Shown here piece after piece: positions 23,492 through 45,376 of a stretch of 64,000 nt of DNA; the first letter of the stretch is position 1; every line of letters begins with the position of its first letter. The notes under the pieces are model-generated. The model saw only the letters and a list, made by a program, of their open reading frames with translations. It ran no database searches and had not been told where the DNA came from. Origin of the DNA: an uncultured Prochlorococcus sp. Lineage in GTDB: Bacteria; Cyanobacteriota; Cyanobacteriia; PCC-6307; Cyanobiaceae. The stretch is from NCBI GenBank assembly GCA_902625845.1, contig CACOCT010000003.1:1-64000 (forward strand), read 5' to 3'. Both the position numbers and the translations under genes were made by a program.

Positions 23492-23713
23492 ATGGATTCA
23501 AACAACAATCGACCTATACTTAATATTGATAATAATGAATATTATATTGACTCATTGCCAGAAGAAGGCAAGGGATTGGTTAATGGTCTTAGGACGGCAG
23601 ATGCTCAATTAAAAATATACGAAGATACTTTAAAAATGATTAATATAGGAAAAATTAAAATGTTAGAGGATTTAAAAAAGATTGTTGAAAATATTGAACC
23701 TTTAAAAAAATGA
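23492..23713 (+). CDS. conserved hypothetical, DUF6447-like
   Basis: 73-aa ORF; ...EYYIDSLPEEGKGLVNGLRTADAQLKIYEDTLKMINIGK. Confidence 0.6.
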   Translation: MDSNNNRPILNIDNNEYYIDSLPEEGKGLVNGLRTADAQLKIYEDTLKMINIGKIKMLEDLKKIVENIEPLKK

Positions 23714-23755
23714 TTGATAGGTGATCTAGATTAGAGAATTAATTCCCATATCTTT

Positions 23756-24376
23756 TTGGATCATAGACTTTTTTTTTCAGCGACTCAAAGAAATAAAATT
23801 TATATTGGAGATGTTTTATCAAAAATTCTTCTTAAAAAAGGTTCCGTTTTAGAAATTGGTAGCGGAAGCGGCGAACATGGAGTTGAATTCCAAAAAAGAT
23901 TTCCAGAAATAATATGGCAAACAAGTGATCCTGTTTCGGAACATAGAAAAAGTATTATTTCATGGATTGATCATGAAAAATTAAATATTAAAATGCCTAA
24001 ACCTTTAGTAATTGATGTTACTAAAATTCCTTGGCCAATTCCCTCCAAATTACTCGATACTTTACAAGTGATTATCTCTATAAATATGGTTCACATAACA
24101 CCTTGGGAATGCACAGAAGCATTATTTAAAGAGTCAGGTAAATTATTAAATTGTGGAAAATTTCTTATTTTATATGGACCTTTTAAAATAGAAAATAAAC
24201 ATATAAGCGTAAGTAACGAATTATTCGATAAGTCATTAAAAATCGAAAATAAAGATTGGGGTCTTAGAAATTTGGAAGAAGTAAATAAAGAAGCAATAAT
24301 AAATGGTTTCCAACAAAAACAGCTTATAAAAATGCCCGCTAATAACCTTACTTTAATCTATCAAAAGGTAACTTAA
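23756..24376 (+). CDS. DUF938 family SAM-dependent methyltransferase
   Basis: FFSATQRNKIYIGDVLSKIL, VLEIGSGSGEHGVEFQKRFPEIIWQTSDP. Confidence 0.85.
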   Translation: MDHRLFFSATQRNKIYIGDVLSKILLKKGSVLEIGSGSGEHGVEFQKRFPEIIWQTSDPVSEHRKSIISWIDHEKLNIKMPKPLVIDVTKIPWPIPSKLLDTLQVIISINMVHITPWECTEALFKESGKLLNCGKFLILYGPFKIENKHISVSNELFDKSLKIENKDWGLRNLEEVNKEAIINGFQQKQLIKMPANNLTLIYQKVT

Positions 24377-26735: not shown

Positions 26736-27212
26736 TTATAAACTAATAATAAATAGGGCTATTAATGCACAAAAAATAATCCATATCCAGATAGGGAGAT
26801 TTATTCTATAGAAATTTTTTTGTGTTATTACTTTTTTATTTCTATAATATTTTTTATATAAATAAAGTGGATTAATACATAACCTAATTCTCTCAAAAAT
26901 AGCATATTTTTTTATAAGAAAATCTAATTCTTTTTGTATTTGAGGATCTTCTAGTTTTTTATTTATTTTTTGGTTATGTTCAATTACCTCATTAAAGTGA
27001 TCAGTTTGAAATTTCGGGAAATCTCTATTATCTAATGTTTGTTGTCTTAAGGTAATCCATTCTTTTGATGTTATATCTTTCGGTATTTGATAAATTTCAT
27101 TATATTTTCTCAAAAATGCAATTATTGCGGTATTTGTTGATGGATCAGGTTTGGGAATTAAATCAGGTCTTTTCTTTTGGATAATATATAATTCTTCCTT
27201 AGAATATTTCAT
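26736..27212 (-). CDS. hypothetical protein with C-terminal TM; distant paralog of 42522-43247
   Basis: 158-aa ORF; YSKEELYIIQKKRPDL... vs YTKEQLKFIGERIPEL...; preceded by leader repeat. Confidence 0.7.
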   Translation of the reverse strand: MKYSKEELYIIQKKRPDLIPKPDPSTNTAIIAFLRKYNEIYQIPKDITSKEWITLRQQTLDNRDFPKFQTDHFNEVIEHNQKINKKLEDPQIQKELDFLIKKYAIFERIRLCINPLYLYKKYYRNKKVITQKNFYRINLPIWIWIIFCALIALFIISL

Positions 27213-27232
27213 AAAAAAGAGGGGGCTTCCCC

Positions 27233-27254
27233 TCTAATTTAGATCAGCTGTCAA
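27233..27254 (-). repeat. leader repeat copy 1 (TTGACAGCTGATCTAAATTAGA)
   Basis: 22 bp upstream of ORF 26736-27212. Confidence 0.85.
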
Positions 27255-27270
27255 CCAATAATATCTTAAG

Positions 27271-27426
27271 TTATCCAGAACAAGAAAATACTCCTGCTAA
27301 AATATTTTTGAAAAATGGTGCTTGTCCAAGTGCATATAAAAAGAAACTTGAAGAAGCGATAGTTAAAACAACTTTAGAGGATTTATTAATCTTTAAATTT
27401 GATACTTTTGTCAAAGTTGAGTTCAT
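27271..27426 (-). CDS. 51-aa single-TM protein
   Basis: MNSTLTKVSNLKINKSSKVVLTIASSSFFLYALGQAPFFKNILAGVFSCSG. Confidence 0.4.
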   Translation of the reverse strand: MNSTLTKVSNLKINKSSKVVLTIASSSFFLYALGQAPFFKNILAGVFSCSG

Positions 27427-27531
27427 TTTTAAATTTTGAATTTGAGTTAATATTAACCTGCGTTATAAATTTTTAATTATTAGAATTTACAAAATTATAT
27501 TTTTTTCAATCGAATTGTTATTATTTTTTCA

Positions 27532-27720
27532 ATGACGTTAAGTTCATACAGAATGCATAGGATTTATCTTGCGGCTACCATGGAATACGGTCTTGGCTCT
27601 GATAATCCAGAAGAACTTGCTTATTATAATAAGCTTAAAGAAGAGATAGATGATATGAAAAAGGACACAATCAATAAAGGTATACCCTTTTATTGGGATA
27701 GTCACGAAGGTAACAAGTAA
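27532..27720 (+). CDS. 62-aa hypothetical, paralog of 39927-40115
   Basis: MTLSSYRMHRIYLAATMEYGLGSDNPEELAYYNKLKEEIDDMKKDTINKGIPFYWD. Confidence 0.7.
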   Translation: MTLSSYRMHRIYLAATMEYGLGSDNPEELAYYNKLKEEIDDMKKDTINKGIPFYWDSHEGNK

Positions 27721-27992
27721 TAAATTTGAATACTTTTTTAGTAATATATGGGAGTCTGATGCTTGTTCTTCTGCCTTTATTGATGATTATTTAAGGCAAA
27801 AAACATATTTACTGCTTTAGATTTAATTTATAAGTTTTGACACTAAAAGGCTATTATATTTTTTTGATGACCTTGTATCACAGGATTCAAAGAAAAAAAT
27901 AGTTATTTTTTCTATAATATCTTAAAAAAGCAAACTTCATTTAGTAATGATAAAACTGCTATTACTACTTTTAATACTGTAGAAATACTATT

Positions 27993-28148
27993 TTATATTT
28001 TAAATAAAAAGGTTATTTCTTGTTTATTTATAGGTAAACATTCCGTCGGATAGCTAATTACTTTTTTTGACATAATTCCGATACCTATAGCTAATAAGAC
28101 TAAGAAAAATAGATATCTTGACCTTGTGCTTTCTAGTATATTTTTCAT
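27993..28148 (-). CDS. 51-aa single-TM protein
   Basis: MKNILESTRSRYLFFLVLLAIGIGIMSKKVISYPTECLPINKQEITFLFKI. Confidence 0.35.
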   Translation of the reverse strand: MKNILESTRSRYLFFLVLLAIGIGIMSKKVISYPTECLPINKQEITFLFKI

Positions 28149-28664
28149 TTTAAAGTTTTACTGATTGAATTAGTCTTTGAATCATAGCCAATATAATTAC
28201 AGCTAATAGTAGACCAATATTATGATATTTCATTGTGTGATTTTTTTGCTCTATTATGATTTTTCTTAATTCTAATTTTCTAGGAAGATTTTCGAGAACA
28301 GATAGATTATATTAATCTTTTAAAGCCATTAGATTTTTTATTATTTCTTAAGTATTTAACGGAAGAATCTTTTTGGGTATGCCCTCAAAGAATTTTAAGA
28401 AATTTTTTGATTTGTTATTTTATGTTTATATGTAGTTTTTAAGAATAGATGAATTTTGCATGATGTATACAATACGTTTGTTTAATTATATTTTTTTGGA
28501 ATTTTTCAACCAGAAAATTTTTTCTATTTTAAACTTACGTATTGTAAAATTAATAAAGTAGATTGTTTTAACAGCCATAAATGTGTTTAGTTACAAATTA
28601 AATATATCTAATTTTTATTTCAGTAATAAAACTGATTTTTTAATTAAATGATTCAGCCTTTGAT

Positions 28665-28916
28665 TTAATTTTTTGCCCAAACTTCTTCTGTTCTCCTCCA
28701 CCCATGAAAAAGTAATCTTTCATAAATTTCTCTAGCTAATTCTATTTCTACAGAAACCGTTGCTGTCATTATAGGCGGTTCTTTTCCTAATACTCCAACT
28801 ATTTTTCCAGAATCAATAAACATATATTCGAAAACACTATCAATGCTCTTATTGTTTTTTGTAAATCTTTTTACTTCTGATCTATTCGAATTTATTAGCC
28901 AATAAGATTTAACCAT
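28665..28916 (-). CDS. DUF1651-like protein
   Basis: YWLINSNRSEVKRF...AREIYERLLFHGWRRTEEVW. Confidence 0.65.
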   Translation of the reverse strand: MVKSYWLINSNRSEVKRFTKNNKSIDSVFEYMFIDSGKIVGVLGKEPPIMTATVSVEIELAREIYERLLFHGWRRTEEVWAKN

Positions 28917-28947
28917 ACATTAAGCCGTAGTTATTGTAATCTTTTCA

Positions 28948-29235
28948 CTATTGTTCAGAAATCCAGCGATTAATTATTGTGCCTTCATAGATATGCCCAG
29001 ATGCTTCAATAACTGGCTTTGTTTCTGGATTATTAAAGATATCAAATAAAACATTTTTTGGTCCTTGAAACATTACGGTTGCTCTTTTTGGCTCTTCCAA
29101 AGATTTTCCAATATAAAAAGTTTTTACACCCATCTTTTTGAACATTTCTTGTTGCTCTGGTGCATTCATGTGAGCTTCATATTCCTCAAAAGTATTACTT
29201 AATTTGAAATCTAAAACAGTTGTTTCAATAGACAT
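28948..29235 (-). CDS. DUF3764-like protein, close paralog of 41999-42283
   Basis: MSIETTVLDFKLSNTFEEYEAHMNAPEQQEMFKKMGVKTFYIGKSLEEPKRATVMFQGP... Confidence 0.75.
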   Translation of the reverse strand: MSIETTVLDFKLSNTFEEYEAHMNAPEQQEMFKKMGVKTFYIGKSLEEPKRATVMFQGPKNVLFDIFNNPETKPVIEASGHIYEGTIINRWISEQ

Positions 29236-29255
29236 TTAAAAATAGTTAATTGCAA

Positions 29256-29277
29256 CTTATTCTAGATCGACTGTCAA
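29256..29277 (-). repeat. leader repeat copy (TTGACAGTCGATCTAGAATAAG)
   Basis: Upstream of ORF 28948-29235. Confidence 0.7.
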
Positions 29278-29440
29278 TATTTAGTATTCAGGATATTGTT
29301 TTCTAAGTTTTTTTAGAGACTTTTGTAGAAAAGAAATACTATTTGAAAGTACATAGTAAATTAACTCTAAAATTGAGTAATTATTTTGATGTTATTCAAA
29401 TCAAATTTTGATTATATAAAAGAAAATAAAATTAAATTAA

Positions 29441-29908
29441 ATGCTAAAAGCCTTAATTATTCTTCCTGTTTCATTCTCTATTTGGTTTGGGTTAGTAAAA
29501 TTACTTTCAACAAATAAGGAATCTTCAATTAATATTCTTTCAAAAAAAGTTTTTAATGATTTCAATTTAGTTTTTAGAAATATTATTGATATTTTAGATT
29601 CTCTATTTAAAAGCTTTATTCAAATATATGAACTTTTAGGTTTAATATTAAAAAATATAGTAGTAATTTTTAAATCTTTAAGTTCTACTTTTGGACAATT
29701 TATTAATCTTTTCAAGGGTATTGGTATAACCTTATTGAGCTTTATATCTTTGTGCAAAGGCTTATATAATGAAACAAAAAATATAACTTTATTTAATAGT
29801 TTCGAAGCAATATTAAATCAAACCAAATCTGCAAAAAATAATGTTGTCAGATTATTTAAGGTTAAAGCGGATGACTTAAATAATAAAGAAGTAACTTTAG
29901 AAAGATAA
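29441..29908 (+). CDS. hypothetical protein with signal/TM and amphipathic helices
   Basis: 155-aa ORF. Confidence 0.55.
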   Translation: MLKALIILPVSFSIWFGLVKLLSTNKESSINILSKKVFNDFNLVFRNIIDILDSLFKSFIQIYELLGLILKNIVVIFKSLSSTFGQFINLFKGIGITLLSFISLCKGLYNETKNITLFNSFEAILNQTKSAKNNVVRLFKVKADDLNNKEVTLER

Positions 29909-30009
29909 TGATAATACTTTCATAAACAAATTATCCAGAAGAAAAAGACAAGGATCTTCATCCCTCTATTTATTTTATCCTTAAATAATTGGCATAATTA
30001 TGAAGTGTT

Positions 30010-30240
30010 TCATTTAAGTATTTAAATTGAATGTCCCTCTTTTAATCTTGGCAAAAAATTATTTTCTGGGAAAATCTTTTACATATTTTCAGAGAGGAAA
30101 AACTCTAATTCTCTTTTTATAGCGCCTTTATATAAATAATTTTTATTGGGAATAATAAAAGAGGCCTTACTAATTGAACATTAATTTTTTATTCTTTTTT
30201 ATTAACTCTTAATGACAATAATTTAGTAGGTTTATCCTTC
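30010..30240 (-). pseudogene. decayed paralog of the PDZ protein at 41427-41996
   Basis: Nucleotide similarity on minus strand: ttctgggaaaatctttt...ttttcagagaggaaaaactctaattctcttttta...tatataaataatttttattggg vs 41460-41560. Confidence 0.65.
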
Positions 30241-30382
30241 ACACTAAGAAAGATCAACTTTATCCTCATAATCCACATCAGAGAAAAAAGCGAAGCAATT
30301 AATTTTCTATATTTTATGTTACTGCTGCTTGAATCGTTCCAATCTTTCTTTTTCAGCAAGATTTGGAGTGAGCCTAAAATAT

Positions 30383-30553
30383 TTAGAAATGATAATATTG
30401 AATTTCTTCAACTTGTTTTATGTCATAATCACAAATGCCAAATTGTATACATTCCATTTGTTCATCAGTTATTTTTTTTTCAACTGAGAAAATATCAAGA
30501 AAATTGCCGACTACTTTCTGAAGATTATGTTTAAATGGATTTCCGCAAGTCAT
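30383..30553 (-). CDS. 56-aa hypothetical protein
   Basis: MTCGNPFKHNLQKVVGNFLDIFSVEKKITDEQMECIQFGICDYDIKQVEEIQYYHF read manually. Confidence 0.4.
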   Translation of the reverse strand: MTCGNPFKHNLQKVVGNFLDIFSVEKKITDEQMECIQFGICDYDIKQVEEIQYYHF

Positions 30554-31093
30554 AATGAAACTCCTTTAATCTGGTTGTTATTAAGTAATAGTTATTTTAA
30601 AAATAAACTGTTGTATAGGGATTTGTTTTTATTGAGTCCCCATAGTAATTTTCTGCTGACTTAACCAATATCCAATAAAGAAAATTAACAAAGGATTTCT
30701 GCATAAGAATCTCCGTAACTATTTCTATTCAAAGTGGAATTTACTATTAAAACAACAGATAAAATACTTAATTTTTATCTACTACTTCTCCTCCATGCTC
30801 TCTTTCTACAACATCTAAACATATAAGAATATCTTTTTTATAGATCTGTTTTCTTCAGATACGTAAGATGAGTTCTTATTTGGTCAATTGTGTCTTGTTC
30901 TAATCCTTTTATTATTAATTAATTACCATCTCATAGTGAGAATTTCAATCAAGATAATTACTATTTTTTAGAGGTTTTTTTAAAAGTTATATATGCAAAA
31001 TTACCAATTTTAACATACAAGCTAATGCATATGTTATTGCTATGCCATAAATAATTATTGATCCATAAGTTTTATTGTTAAGAATTTAATTTT

Positions 31094-31279
31094 TTATTCC
31101 ATTTTTGGGGTTGGTTCGTAAACAGTTCCATTATAAACTCCAACTGCAAGTGATTCTTAGGTGGCTTTATCCCATACAGCTAGATCCTTCTCCTTTTTAT
31201 AATTCCAAAGGACTGTATTTCTAAAACATTTATTCCAAACTTGTGAATTTCTTGTTAAAGGAACTAAATCAATCGACAT
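31094..31279 (-). pseudogene. small ORF interrupted by an in-frame TAA
   Basis: MSIDLVPLTRNSQVWNKCFRNTVLWNYKKEKDLAVWDKAT*ESLAVGVYNGTVYEPTPKME*. Confidence 0.55.
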
Positions 31280-31485
31280 TATTTAAATCTATTTTATAGA
31301 GATTCTAAATTACTTGATAGATTTTTGATTTCCATCTTTAGATTATCTGAATTATTAGATAATTTTTGCAAAATTAAAATTGTTTTAACTGCAATTAACA
31401 AAAGGGCTGCTGTAGAAGTTATTAAGCAATATTTAACAACATTTGGTCCTTTATGAGGAGATACAATACGAAGTGGATATATCCA

Positions 31486-31507
31486 TCTAATTTAGATCAT
31501 ATGTCAA
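31486..31507 (-). repeat. leader repeat copy (TTGACATATGATCTAAATTAGA)
   Basis: Upstream of a small minus-strand reading frame ending near 31300. Confidence 0.75.
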
Positions 31508-31750
31508 CCAAAAATACTTAAATAGTTATTTTTTACAAACGCTTTGTTTAAAGAAATATATTGAAGGATATTTATTTGGAATAAAAAAGCCAGCCTGTAT
31601 CCCTACTAGCTGACTCATAACGATCTTAGTTGAAAAATTTTAGATAAGTATGTTCATTTTTGAAGTCATACTTAAAACTACTGCAAGAAAGAAAATGCAA
31701 GAAACTGCTTTTAAACGAAAATATCCCTGATTCTTAGAGATGAAATTCAT

Positions 31751-31885
31751 TTATACAAAACCAGGAATAATCTGACCTGTAGTTAGATAAGCGCCAATAA
31801 GAGCAATGAAGCCCATCATCGCAAATCTTCCGTTTAGCTTTTCAGCTACAACCTTTTCTTTCTCAATTGTTTTTGATTCTTTCAT
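31751..31885 (-). CDS. hli: high-light-inducible protein (Hli)
   Basis: MKESKTIEKEKVVAEKLNGRFAMMGFIALIGAYLTTGQIIPGFV read manually. Confidence 0.92.
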   Translation of the reverse strand: MKESKTIEKEKVVAEKLNGRFAMMGFIALIGAYLTTGQIIPGFV

Positions 31886-32512
31886 TTGAACGTTTGTTTG
31901 TTTTACTAAGACGCTTCCTAATGCAATCTTATAAATACTTTAACGACAAGCAATATTTAATGTGAGTATAATTACTTACTCTCATATCCTTTATAAGCTG
32001 AGCTTATCTATCTAAAAATCTGCATTAGCTAAAAATATATTAAAAATATACGTTGTATTCATTAGATGTGTCTTTAACTTTAATGATTGAGAGTGTTTAT
32101 AGTCTAAAGCATAGTCAATAAGTTTAAATTTATTTCTATATATTCCTCTTACAAAAATTAGTTTTGTCCCAGCCTTGTTTGAGCATCTCTTCATATTCTT
32201 TATAGCCATCTTCAATTGTTTCAATCTTGCTCCCTTTCCAATCTGGTTTTGTTGAAGTTCTAAAAATATAACCAAAATTTATTTCAATTTAGTCGCTTTT
32301 TTTATATGCGATATTTTCATATTTACGAAATCTTTTTAATCGATTTTTTTTTGTTTCTTCATTAAGGAATAATTCTTCGGTTAATTTCATTTCTTATTTT
32401 TTACTAACCATGGAAAAAGATTAGCTATTTCAGTCTTCAGATTTTTAAGATAATAAAATAATGTGATTAAGCCCAAAATTATCATCAAAGTAATTATTAA
32501 TTTCATTTATTT

Positions 32513-32695
32513 TTATCTTCTAGCTAGGTAAATGATTGCTGTCATAGTACTGATGAACACAATTCCGAAGTTCCAAACAGTTGAACTATTTCTATTAATT
32601 TGTTGAACCCAACTTGGAATTCCATCTGACATGAAAATTATAGTTAATCCAAATAGCAAAACTATTGGTAAGCCAATCGCAAAAAATAATTCCAT
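32513..32695 (-). CDS. small membrane protein, two TM
   Basis: 60-aa ORF preceded by leader repeat. Confidence 0.6.
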   Translation of the reverse strand: MELFFAIGLPIVLLFGLTIIFMSDGIPSWVQQINRNSSTVWNFGIVFISTMTAIIYLARR

Positions 32696-32714
32696 TCAAA
32701 AAAGGTTTTACATT

Positions 32715-32736
32715 TCTAATTTAGATTAGGTGTCAA
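32715..32736 (-). repeat. leader repeat copy (TTGACACCTAATCTAAATTAGA)
   Basis: Upstream of ORF 32513-32695. Confidence 0.8.
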
Positions 32737-32799
32737 CTATTAATTCTTTTTTAAAGTGTTATTATTTAAAATAAAAATCAATTATTTTACCTTTAATCG

Positions 32800-33035
32800 A
32801 AGAGATTAGTGCTTCTCTATTCCTACGCAATAAGCCTTTTCCATATTTCTCTTTCTTCTCCTAACTTAAATTCTTCTCAATTTTGTATTAGTATCAGTTC
32901 TCTCCCTAATACTCCAATAATTTTCCATTATCAATAAAAATATATTTATTAAATTGAGCCTCATTCCCACTATTTTTAAGAAATATTCTTACTTCTGATC
33001 TATTGGAATGAATAAGCCAATATCCTCTACGCATA
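32800..33035 (-). pseudogene. decayed DUF1651-like paralog
   Basis: MRRGYWLIHSNRSEVRIFLKNSGNEAQFNKYIFIDNGKIIGVLGRE... then stops; cf. 28665-28916. Confidence 0.65.
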
Positions 33036-33038
33036 TTT

Positions 33039-33329
33039 TTAACTATCTAAGTATCGACAAATAAATTCAAAATGTTCATAATCCATACTTATAGTTTTGT
33101 ATTTATCAGTTTCAATTTTTCGATTATTTTTTAATTCAACTTTGATAGTTGGATGTTTGATTGAGTAAGTAGGTTTTAATCCTAACCGCTTTGCTCTTTT
33201 GTGCATATATTTTTTTACTTGAGGATTACAGCCGCAAAATAAAAGAGAGGGTCTAACAATTTTACCCGCCGAAGCTTTTGCGATCTTTTCTTCGATCTCT
33301 TCTGAAATTCTCTCTAGAATAGTCATCAT
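33039..33329 (-). CDS. hypothetical protein, coupled to the ligase-like gene
   Basis: 96-aa ORF, start overlaps stop of the 33326-34081 ORF (ATGA). Confidence 0.65.
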   Translation of the reverse strand: MMTILERISEEIEEKIAKASAGKIVRPSLLFCGCNPQVKKYMHKRAKRLGLKPTYSIKHPTIKVELKNNRKIETDKYKTISMDYEHFEFICRYLDS

Positions 33330-34081
33330 TTTTTAATAGCCATCTGCCAGAAAGGATATACCCCACAGGACTTTTCTCGCAATAATTGTAATTTTCTAGA
33401 ATTTATTTTGACTACTATTCCATCAGTAGGATAGTTAGTAAATAGTTTCTTATTAATCCATTGATTCCTAAACATTTCAACTTGAGATGTGAATTTGAGA
33501 CTTTTATATTCTGGAATAGTAAAGTTTAATTTTTTTAGATAATTCAAAGACTCATGTTGGTTTAATCTGCCATTAATTATCTGAAAAGAACAAAATCTAA
33601 GATGGTCGCTTTTAGAATCAGCAGCCCTAATATAAGCGGCTGCTTGTCGTTGAGAATAAGTTGATCGTTCATATTCTGATGGAGAAAAGAGCTCTCCTCT
33701 AACTTGGAATAAACCTCTAATTGCAATTTGTTTAGGTATATCAGGAATCTTTTTTATTTTATTTGTAATATCTCTACCCTTACGACTTATAGCCTTAACT
33801 AATTCTCCGTCTATATATTGAATAGCAATCGCACATCCATCAATTTTCGGCTCAATAATTAATCTTGTTTTAAGTGTTAATCCATTTATGAATAATCCTA
33901 TACGATTTTTAGGTAATGATGGTAAAGGTAATATTGTTTTTTTTGTAAAGTAGTTAGCTTTAGGATTTATTCTATATAGATTTGCCTCTAATTGATCAAA
34001 TTGAGTATCACTAATTAAAGGAGTTCCCATTCTGTAATTATGGTCATACCATTCAATTCGCTCTTCTAAGTAAGTACTCAT
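33326..34081 (-). CDS. minimal NAD+-dependent DNA ligase-like protein (adenylation domain only)
   Basis: EPKIDGCAIAIQY (KxDG), AISRKGRDITNKIKKIPDIP, FQVRGELFSPSEYE, TDGIVVKINSRKLQ, FWQMAIKK (motif V); ends directly after motif V. Confidence 0.85.
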   Translation of the reverse strand: MSTYLEERIEWYDHNYRMGTPLISDTQFDQLEANLYRINPKANYFTKKTILPLPSLPKNRIGLFINGLTLKTRLIIEPKIDGCAIAIQYIDGELVKAISRKGRDITNKIKKIPDIPKQIAIRGLFQVRGELFSPSEYERSTYSQRQAAAYIRAADSKSDHLRFCSFQIINGRLNQHESLNYLKKLNFTIPEYKSLKFTSQVEMFRNQWINKKLFTNYPTDGIVVKINSRKLQLLREKSCGVYPFWQMAIKK

Positions 34082-34113
34082 AATCTTTTATTTACTTTTA
34101 AGGAGCAAATTGC

Positions 34114-34135
34114 CATTATTTAGATTGACTGTCAA
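34114..34135 (-). repeat. leader repeat copy (TTGACAGTCAATCTAAATAATG)
   Basis: Upstream of the ligase-like ORF 33326-34081. Confidence 0.7.
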
Positions 34136-34173
34136 TTATTAACTAAAAGGGATTAATATTGTAAGCATTTCAT

Positions 34174-34812
34174 TTAAAACAAACTCATTTGGTCAATAGG
34201 CTTTCTATTTATTTCTTCTACTAACCATCCATCAGGAGACCAACCCATCAAGAGGGGAAGTAAACCTTTTAATTCATCAGCATCTTTAATCTGCCCTGTC
34301 CATTGTTCCTCATATCCATCAGGTATGACAACAGGCATTCGGTGATGTAGTGGTTTAACTAGAGTATTTGGTTCGGTTGTTAAAATACAACAACTCTCTA
34401 TTTCAGTCCCATCAGGTGAACTCCACTTGCTCCAGATTCCTCCTAACCAAAAAGTCCCATAATTATCCTTTCGAATACGATATTTTTTTTCAAAAAAACC
34501 ATTCGCTGGTATCAAGCACCTTTTGTGTTTCCAACTTCCACTAAATAATTTTTTCTCTTCTATCGTTTCCGATCTTGCATTAAAGGGTCTTGGTCTTCCT
34601 TTATCAAAAGGGTCTTTAGACCAAGGTGAAATAAACCCCCATGACATAAAAGTAGTTTTAATTCTTCCTTCGTTTTTTATTACAAGAACAGGATCAGTGG
34701 GCCTTATTAAATTTTGCGCTTTGAATTTAGTATCAAGTCCGTTTGGATAATCTTTTTTTAGAATCTTTGGTAGTTTTTCAAAATTAGTTGTTAGTTCAAA
34801 TCTTCCGCACAT
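34174..34812 (-). CDS. SRAP domain protein (YedK/HMCES family)
   Basis: MCGRFELTT start with catalytic Cys2, RPFNARSETIEEKKLFSGSWKHKRCLIPANGFFE, LHHRMPVVIP. Confidence 0.95.
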   Translation of the reverse strand: MCGRFELTTNFEKLPKILKKDYPNGLDTKFKAQNLIRPTDPVLVIKNEGRIKTTFMSWGFISPWSKDPFDKGRPRPFNARSETIEEKKLFSGSWKHKRCLIPANGFFEKKYRIRKDNYGTFWLGGIWSKWSSPDGTEIESCCILTTEPNTLVKPLHHRMPVVIPDGYEEQWTGQIKDADELKGLLPLLMGWSPDGWLVEEINRKPIDQMSLF

Positions 34813-34928
34813 TTATTTTGAAAATTCTCATAAACTCACTTTAAAAAAGAAAAGAGCTAATTGCTTTTTATTGTAAATATATCCTCAATCGTATTTTATA
34901 TATTTGGTACTAGAAATAAAAGCATCAT

Positions 34929-35084
34929 TTAATTTTCTTTTTCCCAAACTCTAGCAAGTTCTCTTAGTAAAGTTTTCACTTCCATATCTGACACACCAGA
35001 GTCTTTTTGGAATTGAGTACAAATTTCTTTAATCTGCTCATAAGCCTGCTCTAGTAATATCGTTTTTTGATCTGGGTTTGCCAT
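34929..35084 (-). CDS. 51-aa helical protein
   Basis: MANPDQKTILLEQAYEQIKEICTQFQKDSGVSDMEVKTLLRELARVWEKEN read manually; leader repeat upstream. Confidence 0.6.
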   Translation of the reverse strand: MANPDQKTILLEQAYEQIKEICTQFQKDSGVSDMEVKTLLRELARVWEKEN

Positions 35085-35108
35085 TTTAAAAAAGGTTTAT
35101 ATCACCCC

Positions 35109-35130
35109 TTTAATTTAGATCAGTTTTCAA
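35109..35130 (-). repeat. leader repeat copy (TTGAAAACTGATCTAAATTAAA)
   Basis: Upstream of ORF 34929-35084. Confidence 0.7.
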
Positions 35131-35166
35131 ATAGCATCACTATAGCAATGTACAATTATGTATAAA

Positions 35167-35311
35167 TTATCTAGTCGTTTTTGTATATAAATTCTTTGTG
35201 TTTCCCTTATCTGTTGTGAACATTGCTGCTAATATTACACCAACTAAAAATGCAAATACCATTGTTATTCCTACTACTTCAGACATCCCGCTAGGTAGGT
35301 AATTTAAAAAC
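35167..35311 (-). CDS. small single-TM protein
   Basis: Internal start MFLNYLPSGMSEVVGITMVFAFLVGVILAAMFTTDKGNTKNLYTKTTR within ORF 35167-35355. Confidence 0.5.
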
Positions 35312-35808
35312 ATAATTAAATTAAAAGAATTGAAATCATATTTAAAAAGTAGCAATTAGTTAAAACTCAAACATTAATATCATTATTATTAATAGTATTT
35401 CCTGATAATCTTTACAATACTTCTATACTTTTCTCATTTCTTATTTACATCAGATGTTAAAGAGTAGTGATAGTTTTCAGCTTGCTTAGATTCACCTAGA
35501 TTCGTCCATCGTTGAAGAATCTCAGGTATATTCTCCTATTCACTTATTATTTGTATTCACGAACTTTTGAATATTTTCTTCTGAAGCTTTAAGCAGAATG
35601 ATAACTTTATAAGAATCATCTTTACTAACCCCTCTAAAAGTAGGTTTGATATAAAATTCAGAATCTCTTTACTCAACATCTTCTCTATTGAAAATCACTA
35701 ACTATTCTTCAACTGTTCTATGGATTCAAAATATTAAAATTGTTATGATTTTCGGTTGATAAGAAAGGTCTTGTCGCATCTAATTTTGGATAGATTGTTA
35801 ATCTTTAT

Positions 35809-36081
35809 TTATGAGTAGACTTTAGCGACTATTGGACCAGCTTCTTCATCAGTAAATACAGGTGTGGTTTCCCAATTGAGAAATTCACCCCACTCAGCAG
35901 CATGTTGATATATAGCTTTTGGATCATCAGTTTTCAAAACTATCCAACCCTCTAGAGACCCAGGTGCATGATATCTTCCTATCATCTCAACTCCAGGATA
36001 ATTCCCCCCCCCACCAAGAAATTTTTCTGCACCTTTTTGATGATATCCAGTCTTAAATGACCAATGCTGAACGTAGAGCAT
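35809..36081 (-). CDS. DUF3303-like protein
   Basis: MLYVQHWSFKTGYHQKGAEKFLGGGGNYPGVEMIGRYHAPGSLEGWIVLKTDD. Confidence 0.7.
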   Translation of the reverse strand: MLYVQHWSFKTGYHQKGAEKFLGGGGNYPGVEMIGRYHAPGSLEGWIVLKTDDPKAIYQHAAEWGEFLNWETTPVFTDEEAGPIVAKVYS

Positions 36082-36240
36082 TTTTATATTTTTAATTGGC
36101 TTTCTATTAGTAGCAAGAAAAATGATTAATGAAAATAAATTTTTTCCATTTCATGAGAGCAAATTTCAGTTAATTCATTAAAAAAACAAAAAAAAGACGC
36201 CTGCTGGCTTTTACTGATTGCTATCGGTGAAATTTTTTAT

Positions 36241-36284
36241 GCCCTCGTTCGGACTTGAACTCGAGACCTCACCCTTACCAAGGG
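36241..36284 (-). pseudogene. truncated tRNA-Thr(GGT) 3' half (attachment-site remnant)
   Basis: gccctcgttcggacttgaactcgagacctcacccttaccaaggg vs 3' part of the intact tRNA-Thr at 45295-45366; last 18 bp cctcacccttaccaaggg identical. Confidence 0.88.
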
Positions 36285-36352
36285 AGATAATTATTTGATA
36301 TAAGCTAGTAATTGCAATTGTTTATAGAGAAATATATATTAAATTTCACTTA

Positions 36353-36383
36353 ATTAGTGCGAAAATTAGTGCGAAATTAGTGC
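36353..36383 (+). repeat. three direct repeats ATTAGTGC at left terminus
   Basis: ATTAGTGC at 36353, 36365 and 36376 (12/11-bp periodicity). Confidence 0.85.
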
Positions 36384-36408
36384 ATAATAAGGTTAATTAG
36401 TTTGATTT

Positions 36409-36750
36409 ATGCATAAAAGAGCAACTAAACAAGAAACTGAATTAAGAGTTGCACATGCTGCCGAATTAGTTGCTGAAGGACAAGCTTATTCTTCAATTAC
36501 CACCCATGTCGCCGCGAAATATCGAATATCAAGAAGAAGAGCAAGAGAAATCACAAACAAAGCCTACCTTTTACTAAAAAATGATATCGAGGAAGGGGAC
36601 TTAAATCGTCCTGAGATGATAGCAAAATTATTATGTACTTTAGAGACTGCAATGCATAGAGCAATGCAGGAAAAACAATATTCAGCAGTTGCAAGTAATG
36701 CAAAAGTTCTTATGAAGTTAGTTGGCTTAGAAGCAAAAGTAAAAAGTTAG
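36409..36750 (+). CDS. HTH protein resembling phage terminase small subunit
   Basis: AAELVAEGQAYSSITTHVAAKYRISRRRAREITNKAYLLL...RPEMIAKLLCTLETAMHRAMQEKQYSAVASNAKVLMKLVGLE. Confidence 0.6.
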   Translation: MHKRATKQETELRVAHAAELVAEGQAYSSITTHVAAKYRISRRRAREITNKAYLLLKNDIEEGDLNRPEMIAKLLCTLETAMHRAMQEKQYSAVASNAKVLMKLVGLEAKVKS

Positions 36751-36751
36751 A

Positions 36752-36801
36752 GCGGGTGCTTTGGGAGCACTAGGTCGCAGGTTCGAATCCTGTCGCCCCG
36801 A
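36752..36801 (+). pseudogene. truncated tRNA-Pro(UGG) 3' half
   Basis: gcgggtgctttgggagcactaggtcgcaggttcgaatcctgtcgccccga: anticodon stem-loop (TGG), T-arm and acceptor 3' strand without the 5' half. Confidence 0.85.
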
Positions 36802-36820
36802 CTCAGTAAATCCAAGTGCA

Positions 36821-36847
36821 AGACAGGTTTCCCAAGCCTGTCTTTTT
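36821..36847 (+). terminator. intrinsic terminator
   Basis: agacaggtttcccaagcctgtctttttta, 10-bp stem with one G-T wobble plus T-run. Confidence 0.8.
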
Positions 36848-36931
36848 TATTTGTTTTCATTCTCAGATGAGAAAGGGGATCTCTAGGGGGATCTAGTTTG
36901 TAGTTACAAGTACGGATTGGTGCTTATTTAA

Positions 36932-37135
36932 CTAAAGATTATCGGTATCAGCAGCGTCTTCCTCCTCATAGCATTTATCAGTATTTATAAATTCATAATT
37001 TAAGGTAACTACTCCCTCACCTGTTGTTCTCGCATGAGTATCTAAGGCAATGTAATTTAGATGGTTAGGTAAATTATTATTTTCTTTATCCCATATAGAG
37101 GTTAAGTATCTTTCCTTTTGATATAGTCCCATCAT
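36932..37135 (-). CDS. hypothetical protein
   Basis: 67-aa ORF. Confidence 0.5.
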   Translation of the reverse strand: MMGLYQKERYLTSIWDKENNNLPNHLNYIALDTHARTTGEGVVTLNYEFINTDKCYEEEDAADTDNL

Positions 37136-37153
37136 CCAATATTTCTCCTCATC

Positions 37154-37522
37154 CTAAATACTTCCAGATTTTACAAAATCATATTTTTCTCCATTTCCAT
37201 ATTTTTTATTCAAAGCATTTTCAAAAAATTCAAATTTAGATTTTAATTGATCTCCAAAAGAATTTGTTTGAATTGATGTGGCTCTACCAATTATTCTGCA
37301 TAAACCACTTATTGGTGTAATAAGAAGACTGTAATTATCTAATTTTGAATTTCCTTTTGGTAATTTATCTTTGAAATACCAATAGCCTCCATCATTACTT
37401 AACTTCACACCTTTTTTTCTAATTGCTTTTACTGTCTCTCCCACTTCTAATCCAAACTGTCCTGATAGGACTTCCAAAGGAAATGAGATAGCTATAAGAA
37501 TAGGAAAAATAAATCTAAGCAT
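37154..37522 (-). CDS. secreted hypothetical protein
   Basis: 122-aa ORF with signal peptide. Confidence 0.6.
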   Translation of the reverse strand: MLRFIFPILIAISFPLEVLSGQFGLEVGETVKAIRKKGVKLSNDGGYWYFKDKLPKGNSKLDNYSLLITPISGLCRIIGRATSIQTNSFGDQLKSKFEFFENALNKKYGNGEKYDFVKSGSI

Positions 37523-37669
37523 AATAAATTACTACTTAATATATAGAGTAATTATTTTCTATTAAATATCAATAATTCCTGAAGGTTCTCCCTCTAGCCT
37601 TTCCATTAATTCTCTAAGTTGGTTAAATTGCAGCTAGTAAAGGTATTAAAAATATTTTCTTAAAGATTA

Positions 37670-38056
37670 CTAATCCCTAGGAAGTATTCTATTTAATTCT
37701 GGATATTCAATTCTTAATTCTTCTATAAATGCATCAACAGTTTTCGATATCTCTCCTTTATATTTTAGATATTCCGAAACTTGAAATAATTTCATCGTTG
37801 ATTTTGTTAGAAGTAAAGTTGCAAGAGGAGATTTATCTGCCAATTTATTTGAGGGAAAATATTTTATAGCTTCAGGATAAGTTTCTTCCATATCCTCAAT
37901 ATAGTTTTCTATCTTTTCATTTAATTCATCATATTTTGTTGATAGAAACTTTTTGGTATTTAAATATTCAAATCCAGCAAATATAAAAACAACAGGGAAA
38001 CTCAAAAATAATATTGAAAGAGAAATCCTTAGAAGATTCTGGGAAAATTTTTCCAT
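37670..38056 (-). CDS. membrane-anchored hypothetical protein
   Basis: 128-aa ORF, leader repeat upstream. Confidence 0.65.
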   Translation of the reverse strand: MEKFSQNLLRISLSILFLSFPVVFIFAGFEYLNTKKFLSTKYDELNEKIENYIEDMEETYPEAIKYFPSNKLADKSPLATLLLTKSTMKLFQVSEYLKYKGEISKTVDAFIEELRIEYPELNRILPRD

Positions 38057-38077
38057 AAAAAAAGAGGATCTTATCCC

Positions 38078-38099
38078 TCTAATTTAGATCAGCTGTCAA
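38078..38099 (-). repeat. leader repeat copy (TTGACAGCTGATCTAAATTAGA)
   Basis: Upstream of ORF 37670-38056; identical to copy 1. Confidence 0.85.
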
Positions 38100-38777
38100 C
38101 CAAGTAAATACTAATCCATTCGAGTTAATAAATAATTCCAATCAATATTTCAACCATTTTTACTATCAATAGGAAATTTATTTAAAAAATCTAATAGTCT
38201 TAATATCGCTTTCAAATGCACCAGCTTTTTCAATTTGAAGTTCTCCTTTTTTAGCTATGCCAATATGAGAACTTAGATCAGTTGGTGGTTCATATATATG
38301 TAATTCCCTCTCTAGAAATACATGATCTAAAAATTGTTTAATGGCTCTTACGATATAGTTGCGACATACACTCTCTGGTTTCCAATCTTTTACGCAAATA
38401 TCTATTAGATCAGCAGGATTAATTGGTGGATTATTTTAACTAACTATATCAAGAGCCACTTTATATGGAGGTAAATATTTTTATTGAAAGTTGATTCTGT
38501 TATTGGAGTCCCGAAATTGATCTTTTGATCTAAAAAACTTTCTAATATGTGAACCCAATCCTTATCCTTTTTAGGTTCGTTACCTTGATCTAATTCTGCA
38601 GCAGCTTTTAATTTATGTCCTTCAATAATAAATTTCTAAATATTTCAAGTTTTTTATAAAGCATTATCAAATGTTGTGGGAGACCAATCAAATGGAAGCA
38701 TTACTGATTGCTGTTTTTCATCTTTCTTAATTTAAGTTGAACCTTACCTCTTCTCTCATTGGAAGTTATACCCATCA

Positions 38778-39107
38778 TTAGGGTTTTTCAATTGGAAGTT
38801 TAGGCTTTTGAATTGGAAGTTCAGAAGCACTATTAGTTGATTGAACTAAAAGTTTTAATAATTCTGCTTGCCTCTTAGATTGACTAGCAGTTGTTCCTAA
38901 TGATCCAACAGCGGCACTAGTCACTGCCATTGTTCCAGCTGGAGTAAGTGAAATTAACAATAAATTCCAGTTTCGATTGTAATTAGTATTCTGAACGGAT
39001 TTTAATCCTAGGAAAATGCTAATTAGCAGTCCAACTAATCCAAATATTTGGCAGATGGTTCCAAAAAAAGAATCTTTAGCATTTGCTTCATTAAGTAGCT
39101 CTTCCAT
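38778..39107 (-). CDS. membrane hypothetical protein
   Basis: 109-aa ORF, leader repeat upstream. Confidence 0.65.
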   Translation of the reverse strand: MEELLNEANAKDSFFGTICQIFGLVGLLISIFLGLKSVQNTNYNRNWNLLLISLTPAGTMAVTSAAVGSLGTTASQSKRQAELLKLLVQSTNSASELPIQKPKLPIEKP

Positions 39108-39126
39108 AAAAATAAGATTTTATTCT

Positions 39127-39148
39127 TCTAATTTAGATCAGCTGTCAA
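39127..39148 (-). repeat. leader repeat copy (TTGACAGCTGATCTAAATTAGA)
   Basis: Upstream of ORF 38778-39107; identical to copy 1. Confidence 0.85.
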
Positions 39149-39172
39149 CCAAATTAATTATTTCATGAAGCC

Positions 39173-39274
39173 TTATTTCTTAGAGGTCATCTTAAAAGTT
39201 ATATATGCAAACCCACCAAGCAATAACAAACTAACAACACCATAAGTAATTGCTATGCCATACATATAAGTCAT
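39173..39274 (-). CDS. 33-aa single-TM protein
   Basis: MTYMYGIAITYGVVSLLLLGGFAYITFKMTSKK. Confidence 0.45.
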   Translation of the reverse strand: MTYMYGIAITYGVVSLLLLGGFAYITFKMTSKK

Positions 39275-39388
39275 TTATTTGGTATTTATTTTTTTCGTAA
39301 TTCTAAGATAAACATATAAACCAACACCTAGAAGAAAGACATCTAAATAAATATGCCATGGTGGAAATATCTGATGCAACAGTTCCAT
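39275..39388 (-). CDS. 37-aa single-TM protein
   Basis: MELLHQIFPPWHIYLDVFLLGVGLYVYLRITKKINTK; leader repeat upstream; stop abuts next ATG. Confidence 0.5.
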   Translation of the reverse strand: MELLHQIFPPWHIYLDVFLLGVGLYVYLRITKKINTK

Positions 39389-39412
39389 TTAAAGAAGAGG
39401 GTTGTTATAGCC

Positions 39413-39434
39413 CCTATTTTAGATCTAATGTCAA
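39413..39434 (-). repeat. leader repeat copy (TTGACATTAGATCTAAAATAGG)
   Basis: Upstream of ORF 39275-39388. Confidence 0.7.
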
Positions 39435-39437
39435 TTA

Positions 39438-39785
39438 TCAAGAAAAGACTGGTGGATAAGGTGTTTTTCCATTCATTAAAGCTGTATCAATTGGTTTGCA
39501 GATATTCATCAGTGCATCTTGTCCAAACCCCGGTCCAGAAGGTCCATCTATAAACTCCTGAAATTCCTCAGCAGAAATACCTTCTTTTACTTCCCAAAAA
39601 CAATATACAGGGCCAGTTTTAGTTACGGCATTTGCAGAATGGTTATAAAATCCTTTTTTTTTATTAGCTGCCACGGCATCGTCCCATCCACCGCCAGGGG
39701 CCATTGCTGCATAAGCTGTTTCCCACCATTTTTCAGCTTTTCCTGCCTTAAATTCATGATGAACGATATAAAACGTTGAAGACAT
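39438..39785 (-). CDS. conserved hypothetical protein
   Basis: 115-aa ORF: STFYIVHHEFKAGKAEKWWETAYAAMAPGGGWDDAV..., FWEVKEGISAEEFQEFIDGPSGPG. Confidence 0.7.
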   Translation of the reverse strand: MSSTFYIVHHEFKAGKAEKWWETAYAAMAPGGGWDDAVAANKKKGFYNHSANAVTKTGPVYCFWEVKEGISAEEFQEFIDGPSGPGFGQDALMNICKPIDTALMNGKTPYPPVFS

Positions 39786-39926
39786 AAAATAATATTTGAA
39801 CTGATGATTAACATACTTCGAATAAGTAAAGGAAAGATTAATTTATTTCCAAATTTAGATTTTCAAATTTCTGAATCAACTTTACTTGAACATCAATATT
39901 ATCTTCGAATTATTTATAATTTCAGT

Positions 39927-40115
39927 ATGACTTTAAGTTCTTACAGAATGCATAAGATTTATCTGGCCGCGACCATGGGTTATGGTCTTGGCTCTGATGA
40001 TCCAGAAGAACTTGCTTATTACAATAGGTTGAGAAAAGAAATGGATATTATGAAAAAGGACTCAATCAAGAAAGGGATACCTCTAACTTGGGATATCCCA
40101 AAGGGAATTGATTGA
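39927..40115 (+). CDS. 62-aa hypothetical, paralog of 27532-27720
   Basis: MTLSSYRMHKIYLAATMGYGLGSDDPEELAYYNRL...; internal ATG of ORF 39804-40115. Confidence 0.7.
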   Translation: MTLSSYRMHKIYLAATMGYGLGSDDPEELAYYNRLRKEMDIMKKDSIKKGIPLTWDIPKGID

Positions 40116-40210
40116 TGAGTCTGAATACTTTTTTATTAATTGATGGGAGCCTAATGCTTGTTGGATTACCGTTATTGATGATCCTAAAAGGCAAAAAGAA
40201 GACTCCCTAA
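40115..40210 (+). CDS. 31-aa single-TM protein coupled to the preceding gene
   Basis: MSLNTFLLIDGSLMLVGLPLLMILKGKKKTP; TGATG overlap; decayed copy at about 27726-27800. Confidence 0.45.
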   Translation: MSLNTFLLIDGSLMLVGLPLLMILKGKKKTP

Positions 40211-40321
40211 ATAATTATTATCAAGAAGTAAACTTGTATTATCAAACTTGAAAATACCGAATTTCTCAAATTGTTTTGCTGTTAAAAAGCGGTACAACCA
40301 TTAAGCGTTTCATTTATTGGC

Positions 40322-40522
40322 TTATAAGAATTTCAAAGGATAATTAACATTGTTGGGTTCAAGATGTTTTGTGTAACAAGCTGTTGTGCAATCCACTCCC
40401 TCAGCATTAATACTGCAAGATGTTATGCATTCAAAAAAACTTTCCAAAGCATCTGTATCTTTAATATTTGTATAAATGTCTTTTTTCATTGTTAAACCTA
40501 TACTCTGAAGCTTATTTAGCAA
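40322..40522 (-). CDS. twin-CX3C small protein
   Basis: ...DTDALESFFECITSCSINAEGVDCTTACYTKHLEPNNV. Confidence 0.65.
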   Translation of the reverse strand: MLNKLQSIGLTMKKDIYTNIKDTDALESFFECITSCSINAEGVDCTTACYTKHLEPNNVNYPLKFL

Positions 40523-40655
40523 ATATTTAATTATGAAGTCAAATTTTTGGTAAAGTACCTAGTCTTTTTTGGAATAATGCCACACTATAGAAAAAATGGT
40601 CCAATAGTGTAAGTAGAAAACTTATTAATTAAGTTATATTTTTACTCTATGGATT

Positions 40656-40728
40656 ATCGGTTTTTACGATTCGGTTTTGAAGTGTAAACCGAAGTTCGGT
40701 GTATTTGCCCTATATAATCATTCGGTTT
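40656..40728 (+). promoter_or_regulatory. candidate operator/promoter region with repeated TTCGGTTT
   Basis: atcggttt 40656, attcggttt 40669, aaaccgaa 40686, gttcggtgt 40694, attcggttt 40720, with TATAAT at about 40713. Confidence 0.5.
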
Positions 40729-40790
40729 GCGACATTACAAACATTACTTATTCATATAAAGATAGGTATGTACTTATTCAGAGGTAAACA

Positions 40791-41030
40791 ATGTATTCAA
40801 TGTTTGATCTATTCTTTGATACTCCTGCATATAGACCCGTATATGTAATCTCTGATAGTGAGATGAAGGAGTTACAAAGAACACAAAATCAAGATGAACT
40901 TGAGGAAATTCGTAATCAAAAGAAAAGACTTGAAGAAGCATACAAAGCTCAAGTCAAACATCTTAATGAAAGAGAAAAAGAGTTAAGAACTGAACTAAAA
41001 GCTATTGAACCCGCTAAGAAAAAAGTTTAG
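40791..41030 (+). CDS. small coiled-coil protein
   Basis: MYSMFDLFFDTPAYRPVYVISDSEMKELQRTQNQDELEEIRNQKKRLEEAYKAQ... Confidence 0.65.
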   Translation: MYSMFDLFFDTPAYRPVYVISDSEMKELQRTQNQDELEEIRNQKKRLEEAYKAQVKHLNEREKELRTELKAIEPAKKKV

Positions 41031-41052
41031 TTTTTGATTTTTTTTATCGAAA

Positions 41053-41074
41053 AGAGGGTTTATCCCTCTTTTTT
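41053..41074 (+). terminator. intrinsic terminator
   Basis: agagggtttatccctctttttttt. Confidence 0.8.
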
Positions 41075-41092
41075 TTATGACAGTAAAAATAT

Positions 41093-41275
41093 TTACCACC
41101 ACATACCGAGATTTAATTTTTTGGGTTCTGTATTACATGCAAGCTCACACTCGCTTAACTCTCTGACTGAGAGAGCCTCAAGTATTCTTGCCATATCAAT
41201 AGAAGATAGTTCTCCATTGACGTTCCACTTAAGTGTAGTTTTACGTTGAGGTGTGCTTTTTGTTTTCTTCATCAT
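41093..41275 (-). CDS. hypothetical protein
   Basis: 60-aa ORF. Confidence 0.5.
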   Translation of the reverse strand: MMKKTKSTPQRKTTLKWNVNGELSSIDMARILEALSVRELSECELACNTEPKKLNLGMWW

Positions 41276-41426
41276 GACTTTTTAAGGTCGGGGATAATTA
41301 AATAGCATGATTATTTAAAATTCACAAATAAAATGTGAAGTTTTTATAAGTTAAGGAATTAAATTTATTTATCAAAAATCTAGAAATTCAATTAGCGGTG
41401 TAATTAGTAAGCGTTTCATGTAAAAG

Positions 41427-41996
41427 TTAAATTGAAGTTCCTTTTTTTTGATTTGGGAAAAAATAATTTTCTGGAAAAATTTCTTTTAAATTTTCTGGAA
41501 AGAAAAACTCTAATTGCCTTCTCATGTCTCCTTTATATAAATATTCTTTGTTGGGGACTTTAAAAGTATCTCTTACTAATCGAACATTTATATTTTCCTT
41601 TTTACCTTCCTCATTAACTCTTAATAAGGCTAATTTAATTGGCTTATCTTTTGGTCCTTTTATTAAAGAAACGGCTTCTGTTATACCCATTCCTTTTGTT
41701 GATTTCCCATCAATTTTGATAATTACATCATTTGGTTGAATGTCAGCGGAAGCAGCAGGAGAATCATTTATTACAGATTGAATAGTTAATTCAGCAGTAT
41801 CACTATTAAGAAAAAGCCTTATTCCAATCCCTGAAATTTTTTTATCTTTTTTAGTAGATAGCTTTTTATTAGTTCTCACGCATCCCTCATAATCTCTTGC
41901 TTCTAAACATTTCATATGCAATTCATCAGATATTCCTGCATTAACAGCAGTAGGTAAAGCGATAGCAGCTAGTAGTGGGAGTAGTAAGCGTTTCAA
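41427..41996 (-). CDS. secreted PDZ-domain protein
   Basis: Signal peptide plus ISGIGIRLFLNSDTAELTIQSVINDSPAASADIQPNDVIIKIDGKSTKGMGITEAVSLIKGP. Confidence 0.85.
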   Translation of the reverse strand: MKRLLLPLLAAIALPTAVNAGISDELHMKCLEARDYEGCVRTNKKLSTKKDKKISGIGIRLFLNSDTAELTIQSVINDSPAASADIQPNDVIIKIDGKSTKGMGITEAVSLIKGPKDKPIKLALLRVNEEGKKENINVRLVRDTFKVPNKEYLYKGDMRRQLEFFFPENLKEIFPENYFFPNQKKGTSI

Positions 41997-41998
41997 AA

Positions 41999-42283: not shown

Positions 42284-42303
42284 AAAAAAGAAGCTAATTG
42301 CCC

Positions 42304-42325
42304 CTTATTTTAGATGAACTGTCAA
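42304..42325 (-). repeat. leader repeat copy (TTGACAGTTCATCTAAAATAAG)
   Basis: Upstream of ORF 41999-42283. Confidence 0.75.
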
Positions 42326-42337
42326 TATTATTCTTTA

Positions 42338-45186: not shown

Positions 45187-45294
45187 GGAATCGTTAATAT
45201 GTCCATATATTCACTTATAAGTACTTGAATTGAGGTGTATGATTTTTACTCTCTAAATTCTTTAAAACCCCTGTGGTAGTTGGGCTTTGGGCTA

Positions 45295-45366: not shown

Positions 45367-45376
45367 ATTTATAAAG

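Follow-up and report, generated by a model that had tools for sequence, protein, structure and literature searches.

The hairpin and T-run at 27254–27210 on the minus strand of the window (the whole 64-kb stretch of DNA analysed here) are real and under selection, and they make up the 3′ half of a sharply bounded element of ~48 bp that, among the genomes searched, was found only in high-light Prochlorococcus. On a slight balance of probability, we read this element as a portable promoter wrapped in a read-through barrier, the barrier consisting of a terminator and a masked ribosome site. A broader proposal, which we put forward tentatively and with rather less than even confidence, is that a self-insulating 48-bp promoter module recurs across dozens of unrelated small island genes of high-light Prochlorococcus, that its discriminator and its ribosome-site tract coevolve as the two arms of the hairpin, and that the expression of genes newly inserted or shuffled among the islands would depend solely on a signal of their own, which may be stress or phage infection, whatever the surrounding transcription. 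High-light Prochlorococcus are among the most abundant phototrophs, and few regulators are known for the islands that hold their niche and phage-response genes; Prochlorococcus has no genetic system (PMC9692554). If the proposal is true, the plugging in of many unrelated island genes and their retention under one control would be accounted for by a shared promoter that carries its own read-through barrier, and the element would define a regulon by sequence.

Anatomy of the element and its copies in the window

The layout of the element is TGATTGACAGTCGATCTA-NNN-TAGAGGG-loop-CCCTCTTTTTT-ATG, in which the loop is A-rich. A profile of 113 non-redundant copies revealed that (i) conservation, counted relative to TTGACA, was limited to positions -3 to about +44, the flanks being flat and no sequence being conserved outside the 48 bp; and (ii) the TA and the T of the TANNNT block were 99–100% conserved, with three variable bases between them. 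The ATG follows the upstream motif by 18–24 nt, with a peak at 21 nt. The last ten bases before the start are 89% pyrimidine in the element copies versus 46% in ordinary genes, and runs of at least 5 T occur in 66–85% of the copies, depending on the context group, versus 12.5% of ordinary genes. The subfamilies of the element, as seen at 27233–42328 of the window and in related loci, are TCGATCTAACATAGAGGG, which is present in most strains, CTGATCTAAATTAGAGGGG, which is present in the window's clade, and TAAAATAAGGGGCAATTAGCTCC, which is present in several clades, for example before DUF3764. The clade-specific form precedes unrelated genes within one genome, a pattern that looks like concerted evolution or copying. 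Because the hairpins vary under a fixed layout, we also considered an integron attC site. The attC sites are located after genes, contain R′/R″ core sites and are independent of the next start codon, whereas the fixed distance between our element and the ATG argues for an expression signal. A sigma-70 promoter with TTGACA as the -35 box was rejected, because a conserved -10 box is absent at 16–18 nt and TANNNT lies just 7 nt away.

The window contains 10 matches to the upstream motif, where 0.08 would be expected. In copy 1, a 7-bp stem (AGAGGGG/CCCCTCT) with the loop AAGC is followed by TTTTTT and the ATG at 27212. All of its features lie on the minus strand: the conserved block TGG-TTGACAGCTGATCTAAATTAGA, a putative part of the promoter that matches the motif pattern with 0 mismatches and is also seen in the 113-copy profile (27233–27257); the candidate -10 box TAAATT, of the form TANNNT, assigned from the spacing of 5′ ends in strain MED4 (27236–27241); the terminator-like hairpin AGAGGGG-AAGC-CCCCTCT (27218–27235); and the T-run, which extends to the start codon and whose first T pairs with the base of the 5′ arm (27213–27218). 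Transcription is predicted to start at 27227–27229, 6–8 nt after TANNNT, where the 5′ arm ends and the loop begins. The gene behind copy 1 (26736–27212, minus) encodes a protein of 158 aa without a Pfam match. A 51-aa reading frame (27271–27426, minus), seen as an ORF only, ends 16 nt upstream of the TTGACA of copy 1 and is a possible source of read-through RNA.

The hairpin sequences that the earlier note quoted for the copies at 27210–27254, 38078 and 42304 were located at these positions on the minus strand, and the weaker forms that it named are present on the same strand at 35130 and 29277. The copy at 38051–38102, which reads AGAGGGATAAGATCCTCTTTTTTTATG at 38099, carries the hairpin AGAGGGATAAGATCCTCT and a T-run before the gene at 37670–38056. 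The copy at 42277–42328, which reads AAGGGGCAATTAGCTTCTTTTTTATG at 42325, belongs to a second subfamily (AAGGGGCAATTAGCTTCTTTTTT) and precedes a DUF3764 gene (41999–42283); a copy of the same subfamily with a weak hairpin (29229–29280) precedes another DUF3764 gene (28948–29235). The copy at 35082–35133 has the hairpin AAAGGGGTG...CCTTTTTT and an ATG at 35084. Beyond the copies listed in the earlier note, the window contains copies at 39148, 39434, 31507 and 32736 on the minus strand and at 23714 on the plus strand. The first of these (39100–39151) has a weak hairpin and precedes the gene at 38778–39107; the second (39386–39437) has the hairpin AGGG...CCCT before a short ORF that begins at 39388; the third (31459–31510) is decayed, with little or no stem and with the usual place of the ATG empty; the fourth (32688–32739), before the gene at 32513–32695, is without a stable stem; and the plus-strand copy (23711–23762) is decayed, has no stem and is located right after the stop codon of the ORF at 23492–23713.

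Folding of the hairpin and covariation of its arms

The segment at 27210–27254 has a folding energy of -15 kcal/mol (z -2.6), which was equalled by 1 of 200 shuffled sequences, and the segment at 42282–42325 has a z of -2.0, with 7 of 200 shuffles as good. The folding of the segment at 38055–38099 was within chance (z -0.1, 75 of 200 shuffles as good), and that of seven further copies tested was not clearly better than that of shuffles. As a family, the hairpins lie well outside chance expectation: the mean folding energy of 230 unique hairpins was -4.0 kcal/mol, compared with about -1.05 in the flanking sequence and -0.4 before ordinary starts; only 53% of the hairpins were below -3, and about half of the copies are without a stable stem. 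A G+C-rich stem followed within 0–2 nt by a T-run passed the terminator scan at 27235–27218, 38080–38063 and 42306–42288.

Naive pair counts are misleading for this hairpin because its stem joins a purine-rich arm to a pyrimidine-rich one, and purine-rich and T-rich tracts pair even when slid out of register. We compared the pairing of each 5′ arm with its own 3′ tract and with the 3′ tracts of other copies of the same subfamily. Across 264 copies, own pairing scored 11.42 and swapped pairing 10.66 (z 7.4). The z value was 5.7 for the 230 unique hairpins (reached by 0 of 1000 swaps), 3.7 when the consensus arms were removed, and 4.5 when one copy was taken per cargo cluster, with a minimum of 3.5 over 60 resamplings. 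Watson–Crick pairs numbered 1042, compared with 991 ± 9.3 after swapping. A gapped alignment, which was fitted to the structure and hence leans towards it, contained 62 two-sided changes versus 47 ± 5.3. Column-wise covariation in an ungapped alignment showed no excess over shuffles because the loop length varies, and the alignment-free swap tests were used instead. The arms covary in every one of these alignment-free tests, which bears out the earlier note's argument that covarying stems under a fixed layout point to selection; the covariation is significant but modest in size.

Predicted transcription start and alternative readings

The rule for the transcription start was derived from 14 RACE-mapped 5′ ends of MED4 ncRNAs (PMC2518516), of which 13 were used and the processed Yfr12 was left out. 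Ten of the 13 ends are located exactly 6 nt after TANNNT, and those of Yfr17 and Yfr21 are located at 5 and 7 nt. The 1,657,990-bp genome used is taken to be that of MED4 because its Yfr10 start reads ACTCCTCACAC at the published coordinate. The TANNNT of our element is the best candidate for its -10 box because it is nearly invariant with three free inner bases, as a -10 box should be; the 113-copy profile is flat upstream of TTGACAG and shows no second conserved block that resembles a promoter. The 6 nt that follow TANNNT are taken up by the 5′ arm of the hairpin. With a spacing of 6–8 nt, the predicted start coincides with the end of the 5′ arm or lies in the loop in 122 of 122 stable hairpins and never reaches the 3′ arm; with a strict 6 nt, transcription in slightly more than half of these hairpins would still start at the final paired base of the 5′ arm and not in the loop. 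In MED4, starts are predicted within about 2 nt of 347651 (+), 358185 (-), 359629 (-), 1352056 (-), 1355163 (+) and 1361488 (+). The own mRNA of the gene, predicted to begin for example with AUAAAACCCUCUUUUUUAUG, would be without the 5′ arm, so that the hairpin could not form. In folding models, the unpaired probability of the leader is 0.71 in the own RNA and 0.37 in read-through RNA.

Attenuation and antitermination, both of which the earlier note offered as functions of the hairpin, are disfavoured because either needs transcription to start upstream of it. Terminator attenuation in the 5′ UTR of the gene's own transcript is disfavoured by the start predicted from the MED4 spacing, and antitermination found no support; the only conserved promoter-like feature, TANNNT, directly adjoins the 5′ arm. 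The earlier note also held that a start downstream of the hairpin would count against its proposal; the start is predicted inside the hairpin, which goes part of the way towards that refutation: it speaks against attenuation of the own transcript but leaves room for a role in read-through RNA.

Under the reading that we favour, we infer promoter activity, start site, termination and a block of translation as follows. TANNNT would serve as the -10 box, and the next 6 nt would be the 5′ arm of the hairpin. Transcription would start at the end of this arm or in the loop, and the 3′ arm and the T-run would form a short pyrimidine-rich leader just before the ATG; the own mRNA, which is without the 5′ arm, would have no hairpin, and its leader would be open to ribosomes. 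RNA that comes from an upstream gene would contain both arms, and the hairpin and T-run could terminate such RNA just before the start codon; in upstream RNA that passes the hairpin, the pyrimidine-rich leader would be masked. If only read-through RNA is blocked in this way, the gene would be expressed from its own promoter alone wherever the module lands, and such a barrier fits genes that move between neighbourhoods.

The hairpin may instead be a true 5′-UTR structure of the own mRNA, which would start upstream (within or before TTGACAG...), and the stem may act by attenuation, by protection of the 5′ end from RNase E or by control of translation. We consider this unlikely, though the most serious of the alternatives: the stem is selected and located just before the start codon, and the leaders of MED4, with a median of about 29 nt (PMC3898218), also fit a start a few bases further upstream, but the flat profile upstream of TTGACAG offers no conserved promoter, and the MED4 -10 spacing places the predicted start within the hairpin, in the loop or where the 5′ arm ends. 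Nor is an alternative conserved structure evident, and no family of the Rfam 15 covariance models matches the element, the window giving only tRNAs, Yfr8 and Yfr13. It would also be unusual for a terminator to lie in the first ~25 nt of an RNA, which we count against such a 5′-UTR structure.

That the element is a promoter and ribosome-site module only, in which the purine block is a discriminator, the C/T tract serves S1-type initiation and the pairing is largely a by-product, seems improbable to us. In Prochlorococcus, S1-dependent initiation is believed to rely on pyrimidine-rich tracts (PMC5607370), and this explanation would accommodate both the pairing of such tracts out of register and the half of the copies without a stable stem; it is opposed by the finding that own arms out-pair swapped arms, even when only non-consensus arms (z 3.7) or one copy per cargo cluster are considered, and by the lack of such a tract in ordinary genes. 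Least probable, and in our judgement very doubtful, is a plain 3′ terminator of the upstream gene that abuts the next promoter by chance and leaves the downstream gene unprotected. Although 75 of 101 classifiable copies are located behind a co-directional ORF, many of them within 50 nt, and the terminator scan was passed at 27235, 38080 and 42306, the hairpin travels with the promoter and the start codon: the genes that it precedes are unrelated and differ in their upstream neighbours, and a stem is retained in many copies whose context is divergent. Hairpins are stronger in copies that lie at most 80 nt downstream of a co-directional ORF (p 0.0037; p 0.028, one-sided, with one copy per cargo cluster and context), an effect that we rate as weak support for a read-through barrier because it was not seen in the first 113 copies (p 0.58) and vanished within cargo clusters (p 0.62).

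The portable promoter with a read-through barrier has counterparts in known systems. In IS10, the own transcript starts within the hairpin, and for our element a start inside the hairpin is predicted from the MED4 spacing. IS10/Tn10 is protected from read-through (Davis, Simons and Kleckner 1985, as cited in PMC2965389), and the 5′ terminators of insertion sequences have been described as "mobile attenuators", class a (Naville and Gautheret 2010, PMC2965389). The proposed module resembles both in that a mobile gene has its own promoter and a 5′ structure that prevents expression in a transcribed region. By contrast, IS10/Tn10 guards a transposase, whereas our element precedes dozens of unrelated small island genes, with no transposase found among the cargo tested; in addition, the element packs promoter, hairpin and leader into 48 bp, and its host is cyanobacterial. 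In gene e of phage T4, early read-through RNA hides the ribosome site, and late RNA starts inside the hairpin. The start predicted inside the hairpin of our element would likewise free the ribosome site; unlike in gene e, a terminator-like T-run accompanies the stem, and many unrelated genes share the module. No Shine–Dalgarno sequence is evident in the element.

Distribution, cargo genes and genomic neighbourhood

In a search of 85,462 species genomes with the exact upstream-motif pattern, all matches were labelled Prochlorococcus, save one in an uncultured Synechococcaceae single cell. With one mismatch allowed, the consensus was found in 62 of the 398 Cyanobiaceae genomes sampled; each of these 62 belongs to the window's own genus, and the other 58 genera sampled gave no match. 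The Rfam matches to Yfr8 and Yfr13, together with the labels of the exact matches, assign the window to high-light Prochlorococcus. The window has a GC content of 28%, and its genome, which is small and 66% complete, contains 16 upstream-motif matches; in the deposited orientation of the contigs, 15 of these are on the minus strand. A covariance model identified 12–25 copies per genome in eight genomes, including 20 in MED4 and 19 in the window's incomplete genome. In MED4, most copies are grouped next to the marker ncRNAs of islands 1, 2 and 5.

In 2006, Coleman et al. reportedly described in Science a 48-bp repeat of Prochlorococcus genomic islands, which is probably the same sequence as our element: the two share the length, the organism and, according to our census, the multiple copies in MED4 near islands 1, 2 and 5. 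If so, the element was already known; to our knowledge, neither the promoter and hairpin anatomy nor the covariation was described there. A phage origin found no support in a search of 50,697 phage records with the 49-nt consensus, which gave no credible match and only weak chance matches to the hairpin part. Islands 2 and 5 of MED4 include genes responsive to phage infection, to phosphorus starvation and to high light (PMC2518516). One MED4 copy (654664–654715, minus; locus L212) is located ~100 nt upstream of the phage-induced ncRNA Yfr15 (654301–654562, minus) and near the phage-induced genes PMM0684–0686.

The genes behind 264 non-redundant copies form 88 cargo clusters, which mostly encode proteins of 30–260 aa. 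The cargo includes DUF3764, DUF3804, a bacterial PH domain (bPH_3), DnaJ, GIY-YIG and a pilin-like N-methylation motif, as well as many small membrane proteins, secreted proteins and DUF proteins. Ten cargo proteins tested matched 0 PADLOC families, and no toxin Pfam family was found among the cargo examined. A toxic or defence cargo was rejected on these grounds, and the earlier suggestion of a leader that keeps toxic cargo silent has no support in such a mixed set of genes.

A second repeated module, ATGAAACGCTTACTACTTGCACCGCT..., is present in the window at 41993, 41416 and 40311 (minus) and in other loci (L002, L033, L041, L074, L093 and others), with 59 distinct copies in the loci examined. 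It is the start of a signal peptide (MKRLLLAPLL...), and the idea that this repeat is the 3′ end of a cassette was rejected because it is a coding start. Truncated remnants of the module are often located 2–13 nt upstream of the TTGACAG element, suggesting a shuffling of 5′ gene modules.

Diverged duplicate blocks (76–83% identical) link the two halves of the region (27510–27802 with 39905–40197, 28936–29235 with 41984–42283, and 30022–30161 with 41427–41566) and include the two DUF3764 genes. A 47-nt fragment at 36238–36284 shares 87% identity with the 3′ portion of the tRNA-Thr gene (45294–45367) and is a possible integration remnant at an island border. At 36820–36844 on the plus strand, a strong 11-bp hairpin (AAGACAGGTTTCCCAAGCCTGTCTT) resembling an intrinsic terminator is followed by TTTT and is unrelated to the element.
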